From contig JAHBTC010000008.1 in assembly GCA_019638835.1 (NCBI GenBank), forward strand, positions 1 through 46,477: a stretch of 46,477 nucleotides of DNA. The letters are read 5' to 3'. The notes beneath the pieces are model-generated. The model did no database searches, was not told where the DNA came from, and worked only from the letters and a program-made list of their open reading frames with translations. The translations under genes were made by a program, and so were the position numbers. Below, one piece after another: positions 1-43,866 of the stretch (position 1 is the stretch's first letter; the number at the start of each line of letters is the position of its first letter). This DNA comes from Fimbriimonadaceae bacterium (GTDB taxonomy: Bacteria; Armatimonadota; Fimbriimonadia; Fimbriimonadales; Fimbriimonadaceae).

Positions 1-87
1 CGAGAGCAGTATCGCCGAAAGAATCGCAATAATGGCGATGACAGTTAACAGTTCAAGCAACGTAACTCCTGTCTTGCTGCGTCTCAT
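1..87 (-). CDS. Prepilin with N-terminal methylation motif, 3' part outside window
   Basis: Only the first 29 codons are in the window. They read from ATG at 87 as a short basic leader (MRRSKTG), then VTLLELLTVIAIIAIL. This is the class III signal peptide of type IV pilins and type II secretion pseudopilins: cleavage after Gly7, the conserved Glu at position 5 of the mature protein, and a hydrophobic helix. A PilD-type peptidase would cleave and methylate it. The gene starts 11 bp after the stop of the secreted-protein gene at 99-455 on the same strand, so the two are probably co-transcribed. The first residue of the mature protein is Val instead of the commoner Phe. Whether it is a true pilin or a pseudopilin cannot be told from this fragment. 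Confidence 0.85.
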   Translation of the reverse strand, partial: MRRSKTGVTLLELLTVIAIIAILSAILLS

Positions 88-98
88 GTAGCATCAAC

Positions 99-455
99 TC
101 ACAATAGGGTGCAAGTGGAGTCAGCGCAACTGCCTTCATAGGACGATCCGTGGCACGGATATGCGTATCCTTCTCCTGCTACTGCGTACCAGATGTAACC
201 GTTCTGGTACTGCGCCTTTTGACATGCCCAGTGAAACTCGGCGTAGGGTGCCCACGGAGGACACATTCCTAATGCGGATCGGTAGTCGGTTTTATCAACA
301 TAAGACGTGTAGCCAATGAAACTGCCACACGTGACTTCAAACAATGTCACAGCATCTTCGGGAGCATCGCCCAGAGAATTCTCAATCGCAGGGGCAGCCA
401 AAGCAGTTGAGGCGATAAGCGAGGCCAAGATGAGGGCTGGATGCAATTGCAGCAT
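99..455 (-). CDS. Small secreted six-cysteine protein of unknown function
   Basis: 118 residues from ATG at 455. Residues 1-21 form a signal peptide (MLQLHPALILASLIASTALA, then AP). The mature part has six cysteines, which could make three disulfides, many aromatic residues and a Gly/Tyr-rich C-terminal half ending CADSTCTLL. I do not recognise the family. The frame is open further upstream to a GTG at 527, which would add 24 residues including a repeated Glu-Arg tract read from a GA repeat. I prefer 455 because the signal peptide starts there and a promoter lies directly upstream. It sits 11 bp before the prepilin gene and may be exported or displayed together with it. Confidence 0.6.
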   Translation of the reverse strand: MLQLHPALILASLIASTALAAPAIENSLGDAPEDAVTLFEVTCGSFIGYTSYVDKTDYRSALGMCPPWAPYAEFHWACQKAQYQNGYIWYAVAGEGYAYPCHGSSYEGSCADSTCTLL

Positions 456-464
456 GCCCCATAG

Positions 465-494
465 ATTGTCTCTCTCTCTCTCTCTCTCTGTCAA
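465..494 (-). promoter_or_regulatory. Promoter with GA-repeat spacer upstream of the secreted-protein/prepilin unit
   Basis: On the minus strand a perfect -35 TTGACA (494-489) is followed by exactly nine GA units (488-471), then a -10-like GACAAT (470-465). Nine bases later comes the ATG at 455. The 18-bp spacer consists only of the dinucleotide repeat, which continues into the first two bases of the -10 to make ten units. Such repeats gain or lose units by slipped-strand mispairing, so the spacer could shift to 16 or 20 bp and change promoter strength. The predicted transcript would start within a few bases of the ATG. Confidence 0.6.
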
Positions 495-602
495 GGGTTC
501 AATACATTTTTCTTGAGAAAAGTTCACGGCCCGAAGAAACTCGGAGGAAAACTTTCGCTTGCTCGCTGCGCTTCATCATGCGACCAGCCCGATTGCGAGC
601 AA

Positions 603-632
603 TTGATCGGCCTCGCCCACGGGCACTACAAT
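603..632 (+). promoter_or_regulatory. Promoter of the alpha/beta hydrolase unit, leaderless type
   Basis: TTGATC (603-608), an 18-bp spacer and TACAAT (627-632), with only 7 nt to the ATG at 640. There is no Shine-Dalgarno sequence. A start site about 7 nt after the -10 would fall at or next to the start codon. Confidence 0.55.
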
Positions 633-639
633 ATCACCG

Positions 640-1557
640 ATGATCGCTCATATGCTCCTCGGCCTTCTCCTCACCTCGCCAGGACCCCAACGCCTCGACG
701 CGGGAGATCACTGGGTCGGCTATGAAGTCGTCGGGAGCGGGCCGCCCATTGTCCTGCTGGCGGGCGGACCGGGGTTCGGGGGCGAAGTCTTGCGCCCGGT
801 CGCAGACCTCCTCAAAGACAAGAACACATGCATCTTATTTGATCAACGTGGCACTGGGCAAAGCGTGAACAAAGATGGGAGCAAGGTCTACAGCCACGAT
901 GCTGAGATCATGCGCGATCTTGAAGCCCTTCGGCAGCACTTAGGACACGAAAAGTGGGTCGTCTTTGGTCAGAGTTGGGGCTCTCATCTTGCGGCCGTTT
1001 ACGCCGAAAATCACCCAGATTCCGTTTCGGCTCTTATCCTCGCAAGCAATCCGCAGCCCACCGACGATGGAATGAGAGTGCTTGCCACCAACGTGGACAT
1101 GAGAATGCCACCGGGTGAACTGGCCGAACTCAACACGATTCTCAACGATGAATCTCTTGACTCTGAGGTCAAAATCACCGAGAATTTCTTTCGGTCGCTC
1201 CCCTACTATTTCCATGATCCGGTAATCGGGAAGGAACTGCTCGGCAAGTTCGACCGATCACTGTTCTCACCCCTGACCGCGATTCAACTGCTGGCTTACT
1301 ACTTTGCTTTTGAGATTCGAGATGCTGCCCGATCCCTTCGCGACTGGCCCGGACATGTTCTCGTAATTCAGGGCCACCAAGACCCCTGCGGGAGCGTCGC
1401 GGGCAAATTGGTTGCAGACCTGTTTCCCCGTTCGCGTCTGGTCTGGATCAATGAATGCGGGCACTTCCCGTGGCTAGAGAAGCCGGAAGAGTTTGCCCGC
1501 CCCGTACGATCATTTCTTCTTGCGGAGCGCATCCGCGCCCGTAAACCCCAAAAGTGA
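640..1557 (+). CDS. Alpha/beta hydrolase, proline iminopeptidase-like
   Basis: 305 residues with a hydrophobic N-terminus (about residues 4-13) that may be a weak signal peptide. The alpha/beta hydrolase signatures appear in order: an oxyanion loop LAGGPGFGG near residue 40, DQRGTGQS near 70, and the nucleophile elbow GQSWGS near 110, which is close to the GGSWGS of prolyl iminopeptidases. The acid is probably the Asp in GHQDPCG near 248 and the His is in ECGHFPWLEKPEEF near 275. Substrate is unknown; peptidase S33 or esterase activity are both possible. It overlaps the next gene as TGATG. An alternative start is ATG at 652. Confidence 0.85.
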   Translation: MIAHMLLGLLLTSPGPQRLDAGDHWVGYEVVGSGPPIVLLAGGPGFGGEVLRPVADLLKDKNTCILFDQRGTGQSVNKDGSKVYSHDAEIMRDLEALRQHLGHEKWVVFGQSWGSHLAAVYAENHPDSVSALILASNPQPTDDGMRVLATNVDMRMPPGELAELNTILNDESLDSEVKITENFFRSLPYYFHDPVIGKELLGKFDRSLFSPLTAIQLLAYYFAFEIRDAARSLRDWPGHVLVIQGHQDPCGSVAGKLVADLFPRSRLVWINECGHFPWLEKPEEFARPVRSFLLAERIRARKPQK

Positions 1558-6174: not shown

Positions 6175-6300
6175 GAATATCTTCCTGTACGCGAGTGTAC
6201 CGAACGAGTTTGCGAAGGCCCGGTGAAAGAGAAATCCCGGTATCGAACTCAAGCAATTCGCGCGGAAACTTAGGCAGAATAGTTTGTTCTTGGTGTGCAA

Positions 6301-7518
6301 ATGAGAGTATTCGGACTAGTCTTGTTCCTGACGGCAACCGTCGGGTTATCGGCCCAATCAGGTTGGGCAAGGTATCGGTTGGTAGTCAATTCCCCGGACC
6401 AAGCGCAACGGTTAGTGGACTCTGACATCGGGCTCTTTTCCGAACGAGTAGCGGTCGGTACAACCGACGTTTACATCGGGCCCGACGAGATGTATAAGCT
6501 TTGGGCACTCGGAATGCCCTATCGTAAGGTTTCGGAGTTGCCAGATCCGGCGGGTTGGGATCAGCGTTACAGCAACAAGACGCTGAACTACCGGGGCAAC
6601 TACTACCGCTACGACGACATCATCGCGCAATACGAAGAGTGGCGCATTCAGAATCCAACTCACGTCAAGCGATTCCAAATCGGAACCAGCATTTTGGGGC
6701 GACCGATTTGGGCATACAGCGTTCGGAGCAATGCACTTTTCAGTGGTGCGCGACGCTCATTCGTTGTGAACTGTGGCATTCACGCTAGAGAGTGGATTTC
6801 GCCGGCGATTGGGATGTACGTCTTTAAGAAGACGATTGATAGTGCGGCCATTGGCTTCGCCGATATGACGACCGACTTCAGCAAGCGAGCAATGCTTCGG
6901 GGATCAACCTTCTACTTTGTCCCGGTCAATAACCCCGATGGTTACGAGTACTGCTGGACGAACAACCGGATGTGGCGCAAGAACCGCCGCGATAACCCCG
7001 GCAGTTCGTACGGAGTCGACCTCAATCGCAACTTCGCGAAAGCGTGGGGCGGATCGGGTTCCAGTGGTAACTACAGTTCGGAGACTTATCGGGGCACGGC
7101 TCCCTTTAGCGAACCCGAGTCTCAGGCCCTCGTATTCCTAGCCAATCGGATTCCTCGTATGGACGCATTCATTGACTTCCATAGCTACGGCGAGTACGTC
7201 CTATGGCCATGGAGCTACACGACCGCGAATGCTCCGGGGCAATCATGGCTCGCAACGACCGGGCTGGCAATGAAGAACGCAATTCAGGCGACCCACGGTC
7301 ACGCCTATACGTACGGTCACAGTGGTCAGACGCTGTATCTTGCTGCGGGAGTCACAGACGATTACTTCTATGACCTCTATAACACAGCGGCGTACACCAT
7401 TGAACTGCGAGATACGGGCCAAAACGGTTTTCTACTTCCGGAGAGTCAGATCAGCGACACGCAAGACGAGGCTTGGGCAGGATTTGTGGCCCTTGCCGTT
7501 CGCATGACGAATCGTTAG
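6301..7518 (+). CDS. Secreted M14 zinc carboxypeptidase, copy 1 (Asp at specificity site)
   Basis: 405 residues with a signal peptide (residues 1-18, ending LSAQ). The N-terminal 80 residues may be a short pro-region. The catalytic domain has zinc ligands His161 and Glu164 in CGIHAREWISP and His294 in DFHSYGE, Asn242-Arg243 in VDLNRNF, and the general base Glu368 in YTIELRDTGQNGFLLP. Counting back 15 residues from Glu368 puts Asp353 at the position called 255 in pancreatic carboxypeptidases, where Asp favours C-terminal Lys/Arg. The start was chosen because it aligns base for base with copy 2; GTG 6295 is an alternative. Residues about 80-247 are nearly identical in DNA to copy 2. Confidence 0.9.
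   Translation: MRVFGLVLFLTATVGLSAQSGWARYRLVVNSPDQAQRLVDSDIGLFSERVAVGTTDVYIGPDEMYKLWALGMPYRKVSELPDPAGWDQRYSNKTLNYRGNYYRYDDIIAQYEEWRIQNPTHVKRFQIGTSILGRPIWAYSVRSNALFSGARRSFVVNCGIHAREWISPAIGMYVFKKTIDSAAIGFADMTTDFSKRAMLRGSTFYFVPVNNPDGYEYCWTNNRMWRKNRRDNPGSSYGVDLNRNFAKAWGGSGSSGNYSSETYRGTAPFSEPESQALVFLANRIPRMDAFIDFHSYGEYVLWPWSYTTANAPGQSWLATTGLAMKNAIQATHGHAYTYGHSGQTLYLAAGVTDDYFYDLYNTAAYTIELRDTGQNGFLLPESQISDTQDEAWAGFVALAVRMTNR
6538..7042 (+). repeat. Homogenised tract shared with 7833-8337 (copy 1)
   Basis: This 505-bp stretch matches 7833-8337 at a constant offset of 1295 bp with only two differences that I can find (6808 A versus 8103 G, and 7023 C versus 8318 T). Flanking parts of the two genes are clearly more diverged, which points to recent gene conversion. 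Confidence 0.9.
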
Positions 7519-7540
7519 ATTGGGGAAAAACTAGTATGCG

Positions 7541-7560
7541 TCCCCGTGCAATGACGGGGA
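7541..7560 (+). terminator. Hairpin between the two carboxypeptidase genes
   Basis: TCCCCGT (7541-7547) pairs with ACGGGGA (7554-7560) around a 6-nt loop, 22 bp after the stop of copy 1. No U-run follows, so it may be a weak terminator or an RNA-stability hairpin. Confidence 0.35.
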
Positions 7561-7573
7561 ATTGTAGGGCAGA

Positions 7574-7597
7574 ATGAGAACCCAAAGAGGTTCTCAT
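7574..7597 (+). promoter_or_regulatory. Hairpin covering the ribosome site and start codon of carboxypeptidase copy 2
   Basis: ATGAGAACC (7574-7582) pairs perfectly with GGTTCTCAT (7589-7597) around loop CAAAGA. The AGAGG ribosome site is split between loop and stem, and the first two bases of the ATG at 7596 are paired. Such a structure could limit translation initiation. Confidence 0.45.
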
Positions 7598-8813
7598 GCG
7601 ATCCATCTCTGCCCTTTGTCTCTTCGCCTTGGTTTCATCATCCTTTGCCCAAGCGGATTGGACTCGATACCGATTAACCGTTCGTGATGCGATTGAGGCT
7701 CAGCGCCTTTCAGACTCTGACGTCACCCTTTTTTCTGATGACGTCGTAATCGGATCTACCGATGTTGTCATTGGCCCAGGCGAGCAGTTCAAGTTGTGGG
7801 CACTCGGTATGCCCTACCAACGCATCGCCACTTTGCCAGATCCGGCGGGTTGGGATCAGCGTTACAGCAACAAGACGCTGAACTACCGGGGCAACTACTA
7901 CCGCTACGACGACATCATCGCGCAATACGAAGAGTGGCGCATTCAGAATCCAACTCACGTCAAGCGATTCCAAATCGGAACCAGCATTTTGGGGCGACCG
8001 ATTTGGGCATACAGCGTTCGGAGCAATGCACTTTTCAGTGGTGCGCGACGCTCATTCGTTGTGAACTGTGGCATTCACGCTAGAGAGTGGATTTCGCCGG
8101 CGGTTGGGATGTACGTCTTTAAGAAGACGATTGATAGTGCGGCCATTGGCTTCGCCGATATGACGACCGACTTCAGCAAGCGAGCAATGCTTCGGGGATC
8201 AACCTTCTACTTTGTCCCGGTCAATAACCCCGATGGTTACGAGTACTGCTGGACGAACAACCGGATGTGGCGCAAGAACCGCCGCGATAACCCCGGCAGT
8301 TCGTACGGAGTCGACCTTAATCGCAACTTCGCGAAAGGCTGGGGGGGAGCAGGTTCCAGTGGTAACTACAGTTCGGAGACGTATCGGGGCACGGCTCCCT
8401 TTAGCGAACCCGAGTCGCAGGCTCTCGTATTCCTCGAAAATCGAGTCCCGAGAATCGATGCCTTTATTGATTTCCACAGTTACGGCGAAAAGATCCTCTG
8501 GCCATGGACTTACACGGAGACTCCGCCAGCCGGAAGCGCTTGGTTGAATGCCAGCAGTATCGCGATGCGCGATGCAGGCGCGGCGACACACGGGCATCAA
8601 TACACGGCAGGGCAAGGAAGCACAACGCTTTATATCGCTTCCGGAACCACGAAGGACTACTTCTACGACAGATCCAACGCGGCGGCTTATACGATCGAGT
8701 TACGGGACACGGGCCAAAACGGTTTCCTTCTGCCGGAAGCTCAGATCAGCGACACACAAGACGAAGCTTGGGCAATGTTCGTAGCGCTTGCTGTCCGCAT
8801 GACGAACCGCTAG
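7596..8813 (+). CDS. Secreted M14 zinc carboxypeptidase, copy 2 (Lys at specificity site)
   Basis: 405 residues, same length as copy 1 and aligned with it without any gap at an offset of 1295 bp. The signal peptide is residues 1-19 (ending SSFAQA). All catalytic residues are kept: His161, Glu164, Asn242-Arg243, His294 and Glu368. The residue 15 before the catalytic Glu is Lys353 (codon AAG at 8652-8654) where copy 1 has Asp. In the M14A family a basic residue at this place, as in carboxypeptidase O, goes with preference for acidic C-terminal residues. The ribosome site AGAGG lies 5 nt before the ATG inside a hairpin. The gene converges with folE2. Confidence 0.9.
   Translation: MRSISALCLFALVSSSFAQADWTRYRLTVRDAIEAQRLSDSDVTLFSDDVVIGSTDVVIGPGEQFKLWALGMPYQRIATLPDPAGWDQRYSNKTLNYRGNYYRYDDIIAQYEEWRIQNPTHVKRFQIGTSILGRPIWAYSVRSNALFSGARRSFVVNCGIHAREWISPAVGMYVFKKTIDSAAIGFADMTTDFSKRAMLRGSTFYFVPVNNPDGYEYCWTNNRMWRKNRRDNPGSSYGVDLNRNFAKGWGGAGSSGNYSSETYRGTAPFSEPESQALVFLENRVPRIDAFIDFHSYGEKILWPWTYTETPPAGSAWLNASSIAMRDAGAATHGHQYTAGQGSTTLYIASGTTKDYFYDRSNAAAYTIELRDTGQNGFLLPEAQISDTQDEAWAMFVALAVRMTNR
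7833..8337 (+). repeat. Homogenised tract shared with 6538-7042 (copy 2)
   Basis: Partner of the tract in copy 1. It encodes residues about 80-247, including the first two zinc ligands and the substrate-binding Asn-Arg pair. It stops before the third zinc ligand, the specificity pocket and the catalytic Glu. Confidence 0.9.
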
Positions 8814-40037: not shown

Positions 40038-41261
40038 ATGCTTGCGCTCGTTTCAGCGGCACTGGTTATTGGTCAGAATTCACCTCAGCTTCCTGCGCCA
40101 AATGTCGATTATTTTCGCGACGAGCACAACGCATTCGCCGCTCTACCTCCGCAGGATTTAGGCGTTAGCAATGTTGCCAGACTCCATAGTGCTACCAAGA
40201 GCTATGCACTCATCTCTTGTTACGATGAAATCAACTTGAGTCCCTTCCTGCAATTGGAATCGATGCCGCAAACGCAGTTCATTCTTAGCCACCGCTTACG
40301 GCACAAAGTAGAAATTCCTTCCGCAGAGAACCACGAACCCTATGACAGACTTCTCGAGTTGCATAGTATGGCCGTGATCTCAACAGCCGGACCCGTTCGC
40401 GAGTACGCAATCCTTGCCACCGAGCCTGGATCTGTTTTTCGGCGGCTTGGAGTCCTTTCTTCCCCGCCCGTTGAGAGCCCAGACGGCAGACTCGCAATGA
40501 TTCGCGATGGGATGTTATGGTTCGTGTCTCCGACTGCCGAAGACGAGAGTGTTCCGTTACCAGACAACGCCGTGCGGCTTTCGAATCGACAATCAGGTTC
40601 CATTGTTGCAATGAGTGCTCGAAGTGAAGTGAAGTGGGAATATCTTCCAACTAGCAAGTCATTCAAAGATATCACGGAGGAATACAACCTTGAAGTCAAG
40701 CGGAGTATTCATGAACTACTGTTGAGGCTTGCGACGAGCAGTTTTCGGGTTGCCGAGAAGCCGATCTTCGGCGAGCAACCCAGAACCGAGTGGTGGATCC
40801 TGCCTCGATATGGAATGAGTGTTGATCAACTGCGGTCACTTATGCCACACGAACGACCTGCCGGTGCGGTTATTGCCGCCGACGCCGACCATGCGATCTT
40901 CGCCTCCCCCGAGTTGATCCTGATTCTCCGGGATCAAAGACTGATTGATAGGCGGATCGTTCCGGTGCCGGTGGAATTCTATTCCAGATACGTGCGCAAC
41001 AGGATTCAATACGACGCTCTTTGGCGCGCCGGGATTGCCGCAACCGAGATGCGAAACTTTCGCCTCTTAAACAACCGATGGCCGACGGGAACAGAGTGGG
41101 AGCAACAGATTGTTAAGAAGATCATTGGTTATCCGATGTCTGATCTTGTTGTAGTTCCGATAGGGCAACGCACCAATGAGTTGGCATATATCAAGACTGC
41201 TTATGGCATTGCATCCATTGATACGGAAGGCGTGGCAACTTGGCAGGAGGTAATTCCGTAG
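40038..41261 (+). CDS. Secreted paralogue 1 with diverged pilin-like C-terminal module
   Basis: 407 residues. Signal peptide about 1-14. The family N-terminus reads NVDYFRDEHNAFAALPPQDLGVSNVARL. The middle is beta-rich, followed by VDQLRSLMPHERPAGAV and LILILRDQRLIDRRIV. The C-terminus (IAATEMRNFRLLNNRWPTGTEW to TAYGIASIDTEGVATWQEV) aligns with the ends of the next two proteins but has lost the YAADYD part. I know of no assigned function. It heads a tight cluster of three paralogues. Confidence 0.7.
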   Translation: MLALVSAALVIGQNSPQLPAPNVDYFRDEHNAFAALPPQDLGVSNVARLHSATKSYALISCYDEINLSPFLQLESMPQTQFILSHRLRHKVEIPSAENHEPYDRLLELHSMAVISTAGPVREYAILATEPGSVFRRLGVLSSPPVESPDGRLAMIRDGMLWFVSPTAEDESVPLPDNAVRLSNRQSGSIVAMSARSEVKWEYLPTSKSFKDITEEYNLEVKRSIHELLLRLATSSFRVAEKPIFGEQPRTEWWILPRYGMSVDQLRSLMPHERPAGAVIAADADHAIFASPELILILRDQRLIDRRIVPVPVEFYSRYVRNRIQYDALWRAGIAATEMRNFRLLNNRWPTGTEWEQQIVKKIIGYPMSDLVVVPIGQRTNELAYIKTAYGIASIDTEGVATWQEVIP

Positions 41262-41263
41262 AC

Positions 41264-42559
41264 ATGAGGTTATTAATCCTGCCAATCGTGGTGTTGTGTA
41301 CGGTATCTTCCGCGCAGCCAACGATTCCATTACCCGAGCCGGTGATGTTCCGGACCATCAACAAAGCTTATAAATTACTTCCAATTGAAGACTTGGGTCT
41401 AGCAGGTGTATTCGGTGCTCAAGTACTGAACTCAAGAACGATTTTAGTGTCCACTCGGCAAAGCGGCGGATTGCGTTCGACTCCGGAGCAGCCTGCGAGC
41501 GCAGGTGAAGTTCAGATGGCTCTGTTTGACATCAATACGCGCCGCCGAGTTGTTCCCAGCGGGGACGGGTTTGACGCCCAGCAACCCTTCTACGTTGATT
41601 CGTCTGATCATGAATCGGCGATCATCATCACCAAGCCACTGATGGGCGAATCCGTTGGGAGATTCTGGTTGCACCTCGGCACAGGTCGGGTCACCTTGAT
41701 TCCTGGTACCGTCAGACAACCCATCGTCCTTCCTGGAACCCGCCTACTCGATGTTGGTCGCGAAGAAGTAGTCGTTTATGACAGTCGCGGCGCAGAGATT
41801 GCGCGGCACGCGATTGCCGTCAACACATACTTTTCCCGAACGGGAAACCAAGCCGACGAAATTCTTTTGATCGAACGAGGCCCTGACCGCGCCGACTCGG
41901 AGATCTATCTCCTGAATATCAAGAGCGGAGCACGCCGATACCTGAACCAAGAGCAAGTTATCGCTGAGTTCAAACAAGAGAATCCACTTCCGTATTCCCT
42001 TCTGCCGGTTGCCGTACCGGCAGCCACATTCCCGGCAATGACAATGGGCTGGAATCTGACGCCACGTGATCGAGTCGTTCGCCAGATAGCGCTGCCAAGT
42101 AGCGAAATCCCAAAGCCGCATGAGATCCCCCGCAGTTGCCTGATTGCGCTGGGCGCCCAGCGTGCGGAGTTCATGACTCAGACGACGGTCCTGATCACTC
42201 GTGATGAACGCCTGGCGATTCAACGAATTGAGGAAGCGTCGCTTGGGGAATATGAACTCTTCGTCCGGCGACAAGTGCAGAACGAAGCGATGATGTCAGC
42301 CAAGATGGCCGCTACGGCGGCTCATATCTATGCGGCTGATCATGACGGCCAGTTTCCACCCAGCGGCGACTTCGTAGAAGCCCTCGCTCCATACACCAAA
42401 GACCGGACTGTGCTTGACGGTATGACATTCACCTTCAATGGTGAGAACATCAACGAGATTCAGTCGCCTGCTGACACTGTGATCGGCTGGCGAGACACCG
42501 CGTATGGTCGCGCAATTGCTTATGCCGACGGAAGCGTTCGATGGAGAGCCAACCCATGA
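41264..42559 (+). CDS. Secreted paralogue 2 with pilin-like C-terminal module
   Basis: 431 residues. Signal peptide 1-17 (MRLLILPIVVLCTVSSA). The family start is MFRTINKAYKLLPIEDLGLAGV. The middle beta-rich region contains short repeats that could form a propeller. The C-terminal 100 residues are AAHIYAADHDGQFPPSGDF, GENINEIQSPADTVIGW and AYADGSVRWRANP. This is the pattern of the globular end of Armatimonadota/Planctomycete prepilins (MYAQDYDE...ADTI...FADGHVKW), but there is no type III signal or pilin helix. AGGAGG lies 14 nt upstream; overlaps the next gene as ATGA. Confidence 0.7.
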   Translation: MRLLILPIVVLCTVSSAQPTIPLPEPVMFRTINKAYKLLPIEDLGLAGVFGAQVLNSRTILVSTRQSGGLRSTPEQPASAGEVQMALFDINTRRRVVPSGDGFDAQQPFYVDSSDHESAIIITKPLMGESVGRFWLHLGTGRVTLIPGTVRQPIVLPGTRLLDVGREEVVVYDSRGAEIARHAIAVNTYFSRTGNQADEILLIERGPDRADSEIYLLNIKSGARRYLNQEQVIAEFKQENPLPYSLLPVAVPAATFPAMTMGWNLTPRDRVVRQIALPSSEIPKPHEIPRSCLIALGAQRAEFMTQTTVLITRDERLAIQRIEEASLGEYELFVRRQVQNEAMMSAKMAATAAHIYAADHDGQFPPSGDFVEALAPYTKDRTVLDGMTFTFNGENINEIQSPADTVIGWRDTAYGRAIAYADGSVRWRANP

Positions 42560-43866
42560 GAAACCTGCTCTTACTACTTGCCGGGGCAACCCTAGCGCTC
42601 ACGCCGGCGCAGACTGGCATTAATCCGTTCGCCGCATATTTCCGGGACGCGGAGGCCGCTTACGCACTCTTGCCTCCCGTGGATTTAGGATTTGACAACG
42701 TCGCCGGAATTCAACCAATCGGGAAGAAACTCTTCGTATTCCAGTTTGACTCGCGAGAACCTTTTCTTGATGTGCCGGTTCCGGAAACTCAAGGTGTCTT
42801 GCGAGCATCAATTTACGACCCCGTTTCTCGACGGAAGACAGCGATCACCGGCATCCCATTCGAAACCATGAACTTCGAAGTCGTGAGTCTGGGCCAGTCT
42901 ATCGCTGTACTCAAATGGATCAATGTGATCGAGGGAGAATGGACAACGATCACGTTCCTCCTATCACTCGACAGCGGAAGGGGACAACGCATCAATCATC
43001 CGCAGATCGAGGTTGCAGAGATTTCTGCCTCGGGTCGGCTTCTCGCCCTCGTTTCACAGATGAAGATCTACGTCTACGATATGCAAGGAAACCTCGTTCG
43101 GGAACGAGGGATTGAGGGCCTCACCTTCCCGATCTATGGGAGTCGAGAGGGGCTTGTGATTATGGGTCGCGAAGGGCCACGCGGTCCAATGAAAGTCTTG
43201 CGCTATGACGTGGACAACGATCGGTTCACTGAAGTTGAACCCGAGCAGATCAACCAAAGATTCACCACAACCCAAGCCGACGAAGGGGAGCGGAACGGAT
43301 TCTTTGTGAATGCCATGCCTCACAGTTCAGACTTCCTGGACGGGGATGCAGGTGGCCTCGTGCGCATCGGCACTTATCTCGCCGCCCGACAACTTGAATC
43401 AAACGAACCTCGTTCACCGCTCCCTCATGAAAGGCCCCGATTCGCGACCGTTACCGGCGGGGCGAGCAATGTTCTTCTGTTCAATGACGATCGGATTCTC
43501 ATTCTGCAGAGTCGCCGCCTTCTCGAACGTAAGATTGAAGAAGTTGATCTCGACCAGTATAAGATTGCGGTTGTCGAGGACGTCAAACGAAAGGCGATGG
43601 GGCAAGCCAAGCAACTGGGAACGGCCGCCCACATCTACGCTGCTGATTACGATGATCACTTTCCGATGAGCGGGGACTGGCAGAGCATGCTCGATCCTTA
43701 CAGTCGAAATCGAAGCATTTTTGATAACGCGGTCATCACTACCAATGGCGAGAACATCTCGGAGATTGATCGGATATGTGAGTTCGTAATGGGTTGGGTG
43801 CAGACGCCTTATGGTCGCGCCGTGATTCGGGGTGACTCCAGCGTCCGGTGGATTCCGAATCCCTAG
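42556..43866 (+). CDS. Secreted paralogue 3 with pilin-like C-terminal module
   Basis: 436 residues. Signal peptide about 1-19 (MRNLLLLLAGATLALTPAQ). Family start YFRDAEAAYALLPPVDLGFDNVAGIQ. The middle contains LIMGREGPRGPMKVLRYDVDNDRF, a beta-blade-like unit. The C-terminal module reads GTAAHIYAADYDDHFPMSGDW, ISEIDRICEFVMGW and YGRAVIRGDSSVRWIPNP, close to paralogue 2. LPHERPRFATV is shared with paralogue 1. Start chosen at the ATGA overlap. Its stop shares CTAG with DAHP synthase. Confidence 0.7.
   Translation: MRNLLLLLAGATLALTPAQTGINPFAAYFRDAEAAYALLPPVDLGFDNVAGIQPIGKKLFVFQFDSREPFLDVPVPETQGVLRASIYDPVSRRKTAITGIPFETMNFEVVSLGQSIAVLKWINVIEGEWTTITFLLSLDSGRGQRINHPQIEVAEISASGRLLALVSQMKIYVYDMQGNLVRERGIEGLTFPIYGSREGLVIMGREGPRGPMKVLRYDVDNDRFTEVEPEQINQRFTTTQADEGERNGFFVNAMPHSSDFLDGDAGGLVRIGTYLAARQLESNEPRSPLPHERPRFATVTGGASNVLLFNDDRILILQSRRLLERKIEEVDLDQYKIAVVEDVKRKAMGQAKQLGTAAHIYAADYDDHFPMSGDWQSMLDPYSRNRSIFDNAVITTNGENISEIDRICEFVMGWVQTPYGRAVIRGDSSVRWIPNP

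Follow-up and report, generated by a model that had tools for sequence, protein, structure and literature searches.

Repeat-spacer promoters and the locus under study

In two well-described promoters, a simple repeat lies between the -35 and -10 boxes: in the Haemophilus influenzae hifA/hifB surface-appendage operon the number of TA units sets the spacing of the boxes, and in Neisseria meningitidis porA a poly-G tract in the spacer tunes transcription (PMC3899988). SSR-bearing, phase-variable type I R-M hsdS genes form another known class (e.g., NgoAV, PMC7394358), in which the switch is a translational frameshift rather than a promoter. Here we describe an armatimonadotal locus, located at one end of a 46,477-nt contig (contig C186 of a draft genome, hereafter “the window”, meaning this whole stretch of DNA), which likely represents a phase-variable promoter with a GA-repeat spacer, preceding an operon for a secreted protein and a prepilin.

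Like hif, the window promoter carries a dinucleotide repeat between its -35 and -10 boxes, ahead of a secreted-protein and prepilin operon; it differs in having GA instead of TA, in acting in one direction, in its leaderless or near-leaderless start, in the unrelated genes it precedes and in its phylum (Armatimonadota), and its switching is predicted. With porA, the likeness is that the poly-G promoters of sister genomes (see below) have the same layout, whereas the window promoter has a 2-bp unit and hence would change in 2-bp steps. A probable member of the hsdS class also occurs in the genome of the window, as a separate locus. The initial annotation drew the parallel with hif; the proposed switch follows the same logic as both hif and porA (PMC3899988), the differences being the phylum, a GA unit that fills the spacer, and the leaderless start. 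The mechanism is already known, and the phylum and the GA spacer appear to be new; a search for literature on phase variation in Armatimonadetes/Armatimonadota returned nothing among open-licence papers.

Anatomy of the window promoter and the genes it precedes

All elements of the promoter lie on the minus strand: a -35 box TTGACA (489..494), a (GA)9 spacer, the putative slippage tract (471..488), a -10 box GACAAT located 18 nt from the -35 box and matching the consensus at 4/6 positions (465..470), a 9-nt interval CTATGGGGC from which a leaderless or nearly leaderless mRNA is predicted (456..464), and the start codon ATG (455-453). Direct reading thus bears out, to the nucleotide, the initial description of this region, including its claim that the GA repeat makes up the whole spacer. 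TRF delimits a pure GA array at 469-489 (10.5 copies, 100% match), and a promoter scanner recovered both boxes with 10/12 consensus matches and the 18-nt spacer, with two promoter-like sites in window positions 1-1000 vs. 0.6 in shuffled sequences. A simple repeat between -35 and -10, as seen here, is one feature of the hif/porA promoter class. The -10 box is weak, lacking the first T of the consensus and standing 9 nt from the ATG rather than 6-7, and an alternative candidate, CAATCT, is found 7 nt from the ATG with a 20-nt spacer. On the opposite strand (window 603-640, plus), a separate leaderless-like promoter (TTGATC-18-TACAAT-7-ATG) precedes a divergent hydrolase gene; this gene, starting at 640, had no match in two same-genus genomes and so provided no synteny.

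Downstream, the first gene (99..455, minus) encodes a 118-aa orphan protein that bears a Sec-type N-terminus and contains six cysteines, and is followed, 11 nt past its stop codon, by a truncated prepilin ORF (1..87, minus) starting with MRRSKTGVTLLELLTVIAIIAILSAILLS and matching the Pfam family N_methyl (PF07963, E 3e-7). The prepilin is incomplete because the window is the whole contig, the end of which interrupts the ORF. The cysteine-rich exported protein and pilin-like gene initially proposed are both recognizable here, and the Sec-type N-terminus and prepilin motif together mark the products as secreted or surface-exposed. Homologues of the 118-aa protein were found neither among 101 relatives nor in the genome-contig collection, and its AlphaFold model, built from a single sequence, is poor (mean pLDDT 51). 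A weak Pfam match to SOSEKI fell under the cut-off of that family and was rejected as an identity for this protein.

Elsewhere in the window, two tandem secreted proteins of 405-407 aa (6295-8813, plus) are very similar to each other, with long identical stretches between both copies, and are putative M14-type carboxypeptidases. Three adjacent proteins of ~407-441 aa with similar openings (40038-43866, plus) look like a tandem paralogue set.

GA tracts of this size are rare

The draft assembly contains only two GA tracts of at least 16 nt, i.e., the window promoter and one in hsdS. Across the phylum, TTGACANAGAGAGAGAGA was found in 2 of 291 genomes, namely that of the window and its same-genus sister Uphvl-Ar2, with no hit for the reversed control. 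A second sequence of the window locus was absent from the collections searched, and another same-genus genome (G002) had no comparable tract. One Armatimonadetes match (SJ842, L212) was rejected as the window locus, its tract being flanked on one side by an HrcA-like gene and on the other by a GrpE-like ORF (putative names). Five further GA tracts were noted in the family (G024, G053, G178, G180 and G182).

Extending the search to 84,980 genomes yielded 20 exact matches to TTGACANAGAGAGAGAGAGAGA, six of them followed by TANNNT at spacers of 17-19, compared with a chance expectation of ~1.1 over the spacers examined, although two of these six cases are near-identical upstream regions. Promoters with a GA spacer may thus have had more than one origin. 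Two MAG contigs, one of them labelled Patescibacteria, have a common upstream region with TTGACA, a GA tract and TAAGGT before different ORFs (L202 3721-3742 and L205 231-252).

Like promoters in Uphvl-Ar2

For comparison, we examined the entire closed genome of the sister Armatimonadetes bacterium Uphvl-Ar2 (G001, 2,633,441 bases; CP021424.1, an 8-kb stretch of the record being identical), in which two promoters resemble that of the window. The first (A1, position 607783), ahead of a 186-aa secreted protein, reads TTGACA AAGAGAGAGAGAGAGA GAATAT AGCCCTC ATG (spacer 16, then 7 nt); apart from its tract, no dinucleotide tract in the whole genome exceeds 10 nt, and its -10 box GAATAT matches the consensus at 3/6 positions only. 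The second (B1, 2012645, minus), ahead of a 151-aa secreted protein, reads TTGACA GAGAGAGCGAGAGAGA GATAAT ACTGGC ATG (spacer 16, then 6 nt); here the tract is interrupted (GAGAGAGCGAGAGAGAGA), so that slippage should be slower. The window protein and those behind A1 and B1 showed no pairwise similarity in an all-against-all comparison, nor was homology detected between the window protein and either the first protein of the tandem cassettes of another genus (G026, see below) or the other tract-linked proteins of Uphvl-Ar2. What these loci have in common is thus their architecture rather than detectable gene descent.

An apparent intrinsic terminator (hairpin CCCCCTTTTCAGGGGG followed by a T-rich run) directly adjoins B1 upstream, so the promoter should lie within the TTGACA-bearing stretch. 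Moreover, the TTGACA of B1 contains a TGA in frame with the ATG, with no start codon between them, so that the B1 tract is non-coding. This bears on the possibility that the window tract is itself coding, with translation from GTG 527 (a start that the initial annotation named as one that would overturn its own reading) or from TTG 494 and slippage shifting the reading frame. No stop codon interrupts the frame from GTG 527 across the tract, and the GA tract of hsdS in the same genome does lie inside coding sequence; however, such a start would place 24 residues (MNFSQEKCIEPLTERERERDNLWG) ahead of the signal peptide, and the distance from TTGACA to ATG differs in phase among the three loci (39 nt in the window, 35 in A1, 34 in B1). 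Together with the in-frame TGA of B1, this makes a coding tract highly improbable.

Leaderless starts and spacer length

Upstream of ATGs in Uphvl-Ar2, the motif TANNNT peaks sharply at 6 nt (4.9%) and 7 nt (3.3%), with a shoulder to 12, against a background of ~0.7% at positions more distant from the start and ~0.3% for internal ATGs; AGGAG/GGAGG rises to little more than 1%. This sharp peak and the scarcity of Shine-Dalgarno motifs suggest that many genes of this genome are probably read from leaderless mRNAs, in which case a -10 box as close to the start codon as that of the window is ordinary. Another function considered for the purine tract, placed ~13-15 nt from the ATG, is that of a ribosome-binding sequence or stability element in a 5' UTR, with the promoter further upstream. 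We regard this as very unlikely, given that leaderless starts are common and Shine-Dalgarno motifs scarce in Uphvl-Ar2, that the B1 terminator leaves little space upstream of its TTGACA, and that a TTGACA directly ahead of the tract is common to the window, A1 and B1. The reading of the region as a promoter, as first annotated, is instead supported by the two like promoters (one just behind a terminator) and by the leaderless -10 signal 6-7 nt before ATGs.

Among the TANNNT genes of Uphvl-Ar2, TTGACA-like boxes are most often spaced 17-19 nt from the -10 box, with a top at 18, although the peak is modest (13 vs. a mean of ~5 at longer distances). The 18-nt spacer of the window sits on this peak, and spacers of 16 or 20 would fall off it, which probably makes (GA)9 the active state. 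Whether the assembled sequence represents the on or the off state is nonetheless uncertain, given a weak -10 box that stands 9 nt from the ATG and CAATCT as a possible alternative; if CAATCT were the -10 box (spacer 20), the assembled state would be one unit too long.

Repeat-tract promoters recur across the family and differ in length

The genome of Uphvl-Ar2 holds a larger set of tract-bearing promoters. In a census of tracts (G of at least 8, GA of at least 10 and T of at least 9, thresholds chosen after some cases had been seen), 15 of 25 lay at most 60 nt upstream of an ORF whose start is leaderless-like and whose N-terminus is hydrophobic (signal-peptide ORFs), vs. 0.76% of random positions meeting the same criterion. 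As several are paralogues, these 15 correspond to about eight independent cases, for which the excess is still very large. Two secreted-protein promoters have G8 within the spacer (TTGACA-18-TAGCAT-6-ATG and TTGACA-18-TAGCGT-6-ATG). In three paralogues TTGAC is directly followed by T9, T11 and T9, then CAGACCTGTC and the -10 box, giving spacers of 18, 20 and 18 (counted by hand). Two tandem cassettes of a secreted protein and a prepilin have T11 vs. T9 in otherwise matching flanks, and further paralogue sets comprise three members with G9, G10 and G8 and two with G11 and G8. In the G9/G10/G8 set, as in the T11/T9 cassettes, the tract is further upstream, at or past the -35 position, so that it may act by shifting an upstream element rather than by spacer length.

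Poly-T tracts of 9-15, unequal in length between paralogues, lie upstream of secreted-protein and prepilin genes of Uphvl-Ar2 (G001:C1 1708774, 1711383, 1713964, 1871250, 1872674, 2465232 and 2392500). An element resembling ATAGGTAT is common to several of the repeat promoters, where it precedes the tract (G001:C1 2302664, 2304368, 2306111, 1738813, 1871250 and 1872674).

Across the family, a scan for the poly-G layout TTGACA-N-G-TANNNT-N-ATG gave 12 sites in eight genomes, with two more elsewhere in the phylum (reversed control: 0); the ten sites measured had spacers of 15-20 and runs of 8-10 where the search required only 6. Another genus (G026) has two tandem cassettes (L053, G026:C20:24000-40000), in each of which a 23-24-nt GA tract ((GA)11.5) stops ~12 nt short of the ATG of a Cys-rich secreted protein, with a prepilin next in order. 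TTGACA is absent before either tract, so the geometry differs from that of the window. The order of secreted protein and prepilin behind a repeat tract is thus seen in the window, twice in G026 (GA) and twice in Uphvl-Ar2 (T).

Length change of GA tracts is documented at hsdS, where a tract lies between the halves of the type I R-M specificity gene ((GA)9 in the genome of the window, L052 10061-10078, G000:C132). At this one site, with matching flanks, three species have 9 units (window genome, full-length frame), 11 (G008) and 7 (G029), the latter two both out of frame. GA tracts do therefore change length in the family, and the hsdS of the window genome is probably phase-variable, judging from these sequences. 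In another genome (L055 4228-4253, G003:C90), a 245-aa secreted protein has a (CT)11 tract among the codons of its signal peptide, a possible translational switch.

These length differences bear on the question of whether the window promoter, if genuine, switches at all, or whether its GA spacer is a fixed, static microsatellite kept by descent. A static spacer would fit the interrupted yet promoter-like tract of B1, and the window locus is known from a single sequence. We nevertheless consider it unlikely, as the window tract is perfect over 20 nt and one of just two GA tracts of such length in its genome, paralogous tract promoters of Uphvl-Ar2 differ in length, and the hsdS tract has 9, 11 or 7 units. 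The switch originally proposed for the window thus gains indirect support from tract promoters found family-wide before secreted-protein and prepilin operons, from their length differences between paralogues and from hsdS.

A putative contingency set in the Armatimonadota

We therefore favor a phase-variable promoter as the reading of this locus, and propose the following mechanism. The promoter would be of the sigma-70 type, leaderless or nearly so, with a GA dinucleotide repeat as its entire -35/-10 spacer. Slipped-strand mispairing during replication would add or remove 2-bp units, moving the spacer among 16, 18 and 20 nt, and transcription of the secreted-protein and prepilin operon would in turn change randomly and reversibly, as a form of bet-hedging. 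The window promoter would be one of a larger contingency set with G, T or GA tracts, the positions and length differences of which are observed and the switching of which is inferred; in this family of Armatimonadota, the set would drive prepilin operons as well as secreted proteins that are small and evolve fast.

More broadly, it seems reasonably probable that Fimbriimonas-like Armatimonadota have a large contingency system, the first for the phylum. Its G, T and GA tracts, placed within leaderless promoters or next to them, would randomize how strongly prepilin operons and orphan secreted proteins are expressed, with over a dozen such promoters per genome in some members. If true, the GA promoter of the window would be a dinucleotide version, in which the repeat is the entire spacer. 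This arrangement points to leaderless promoters as possible carriers of such switches, the spacer varying while the mRNA start stays fixed beside the ATG. The closed genome of Uphvl-Ar2 offers a testable system, with ~15 candidate loci and several paralogous sets differing mainly in tract length. Most of what is known about promoter phase variation through simple repeats comes from host-adapted bacteria. Its use for orphan secreted proteins and prepilins by an environmental, mostly uncultured phylum would raise the question of which selective force maintains it where there is no host immune system, candidates being phages, predators and life in biofilms.
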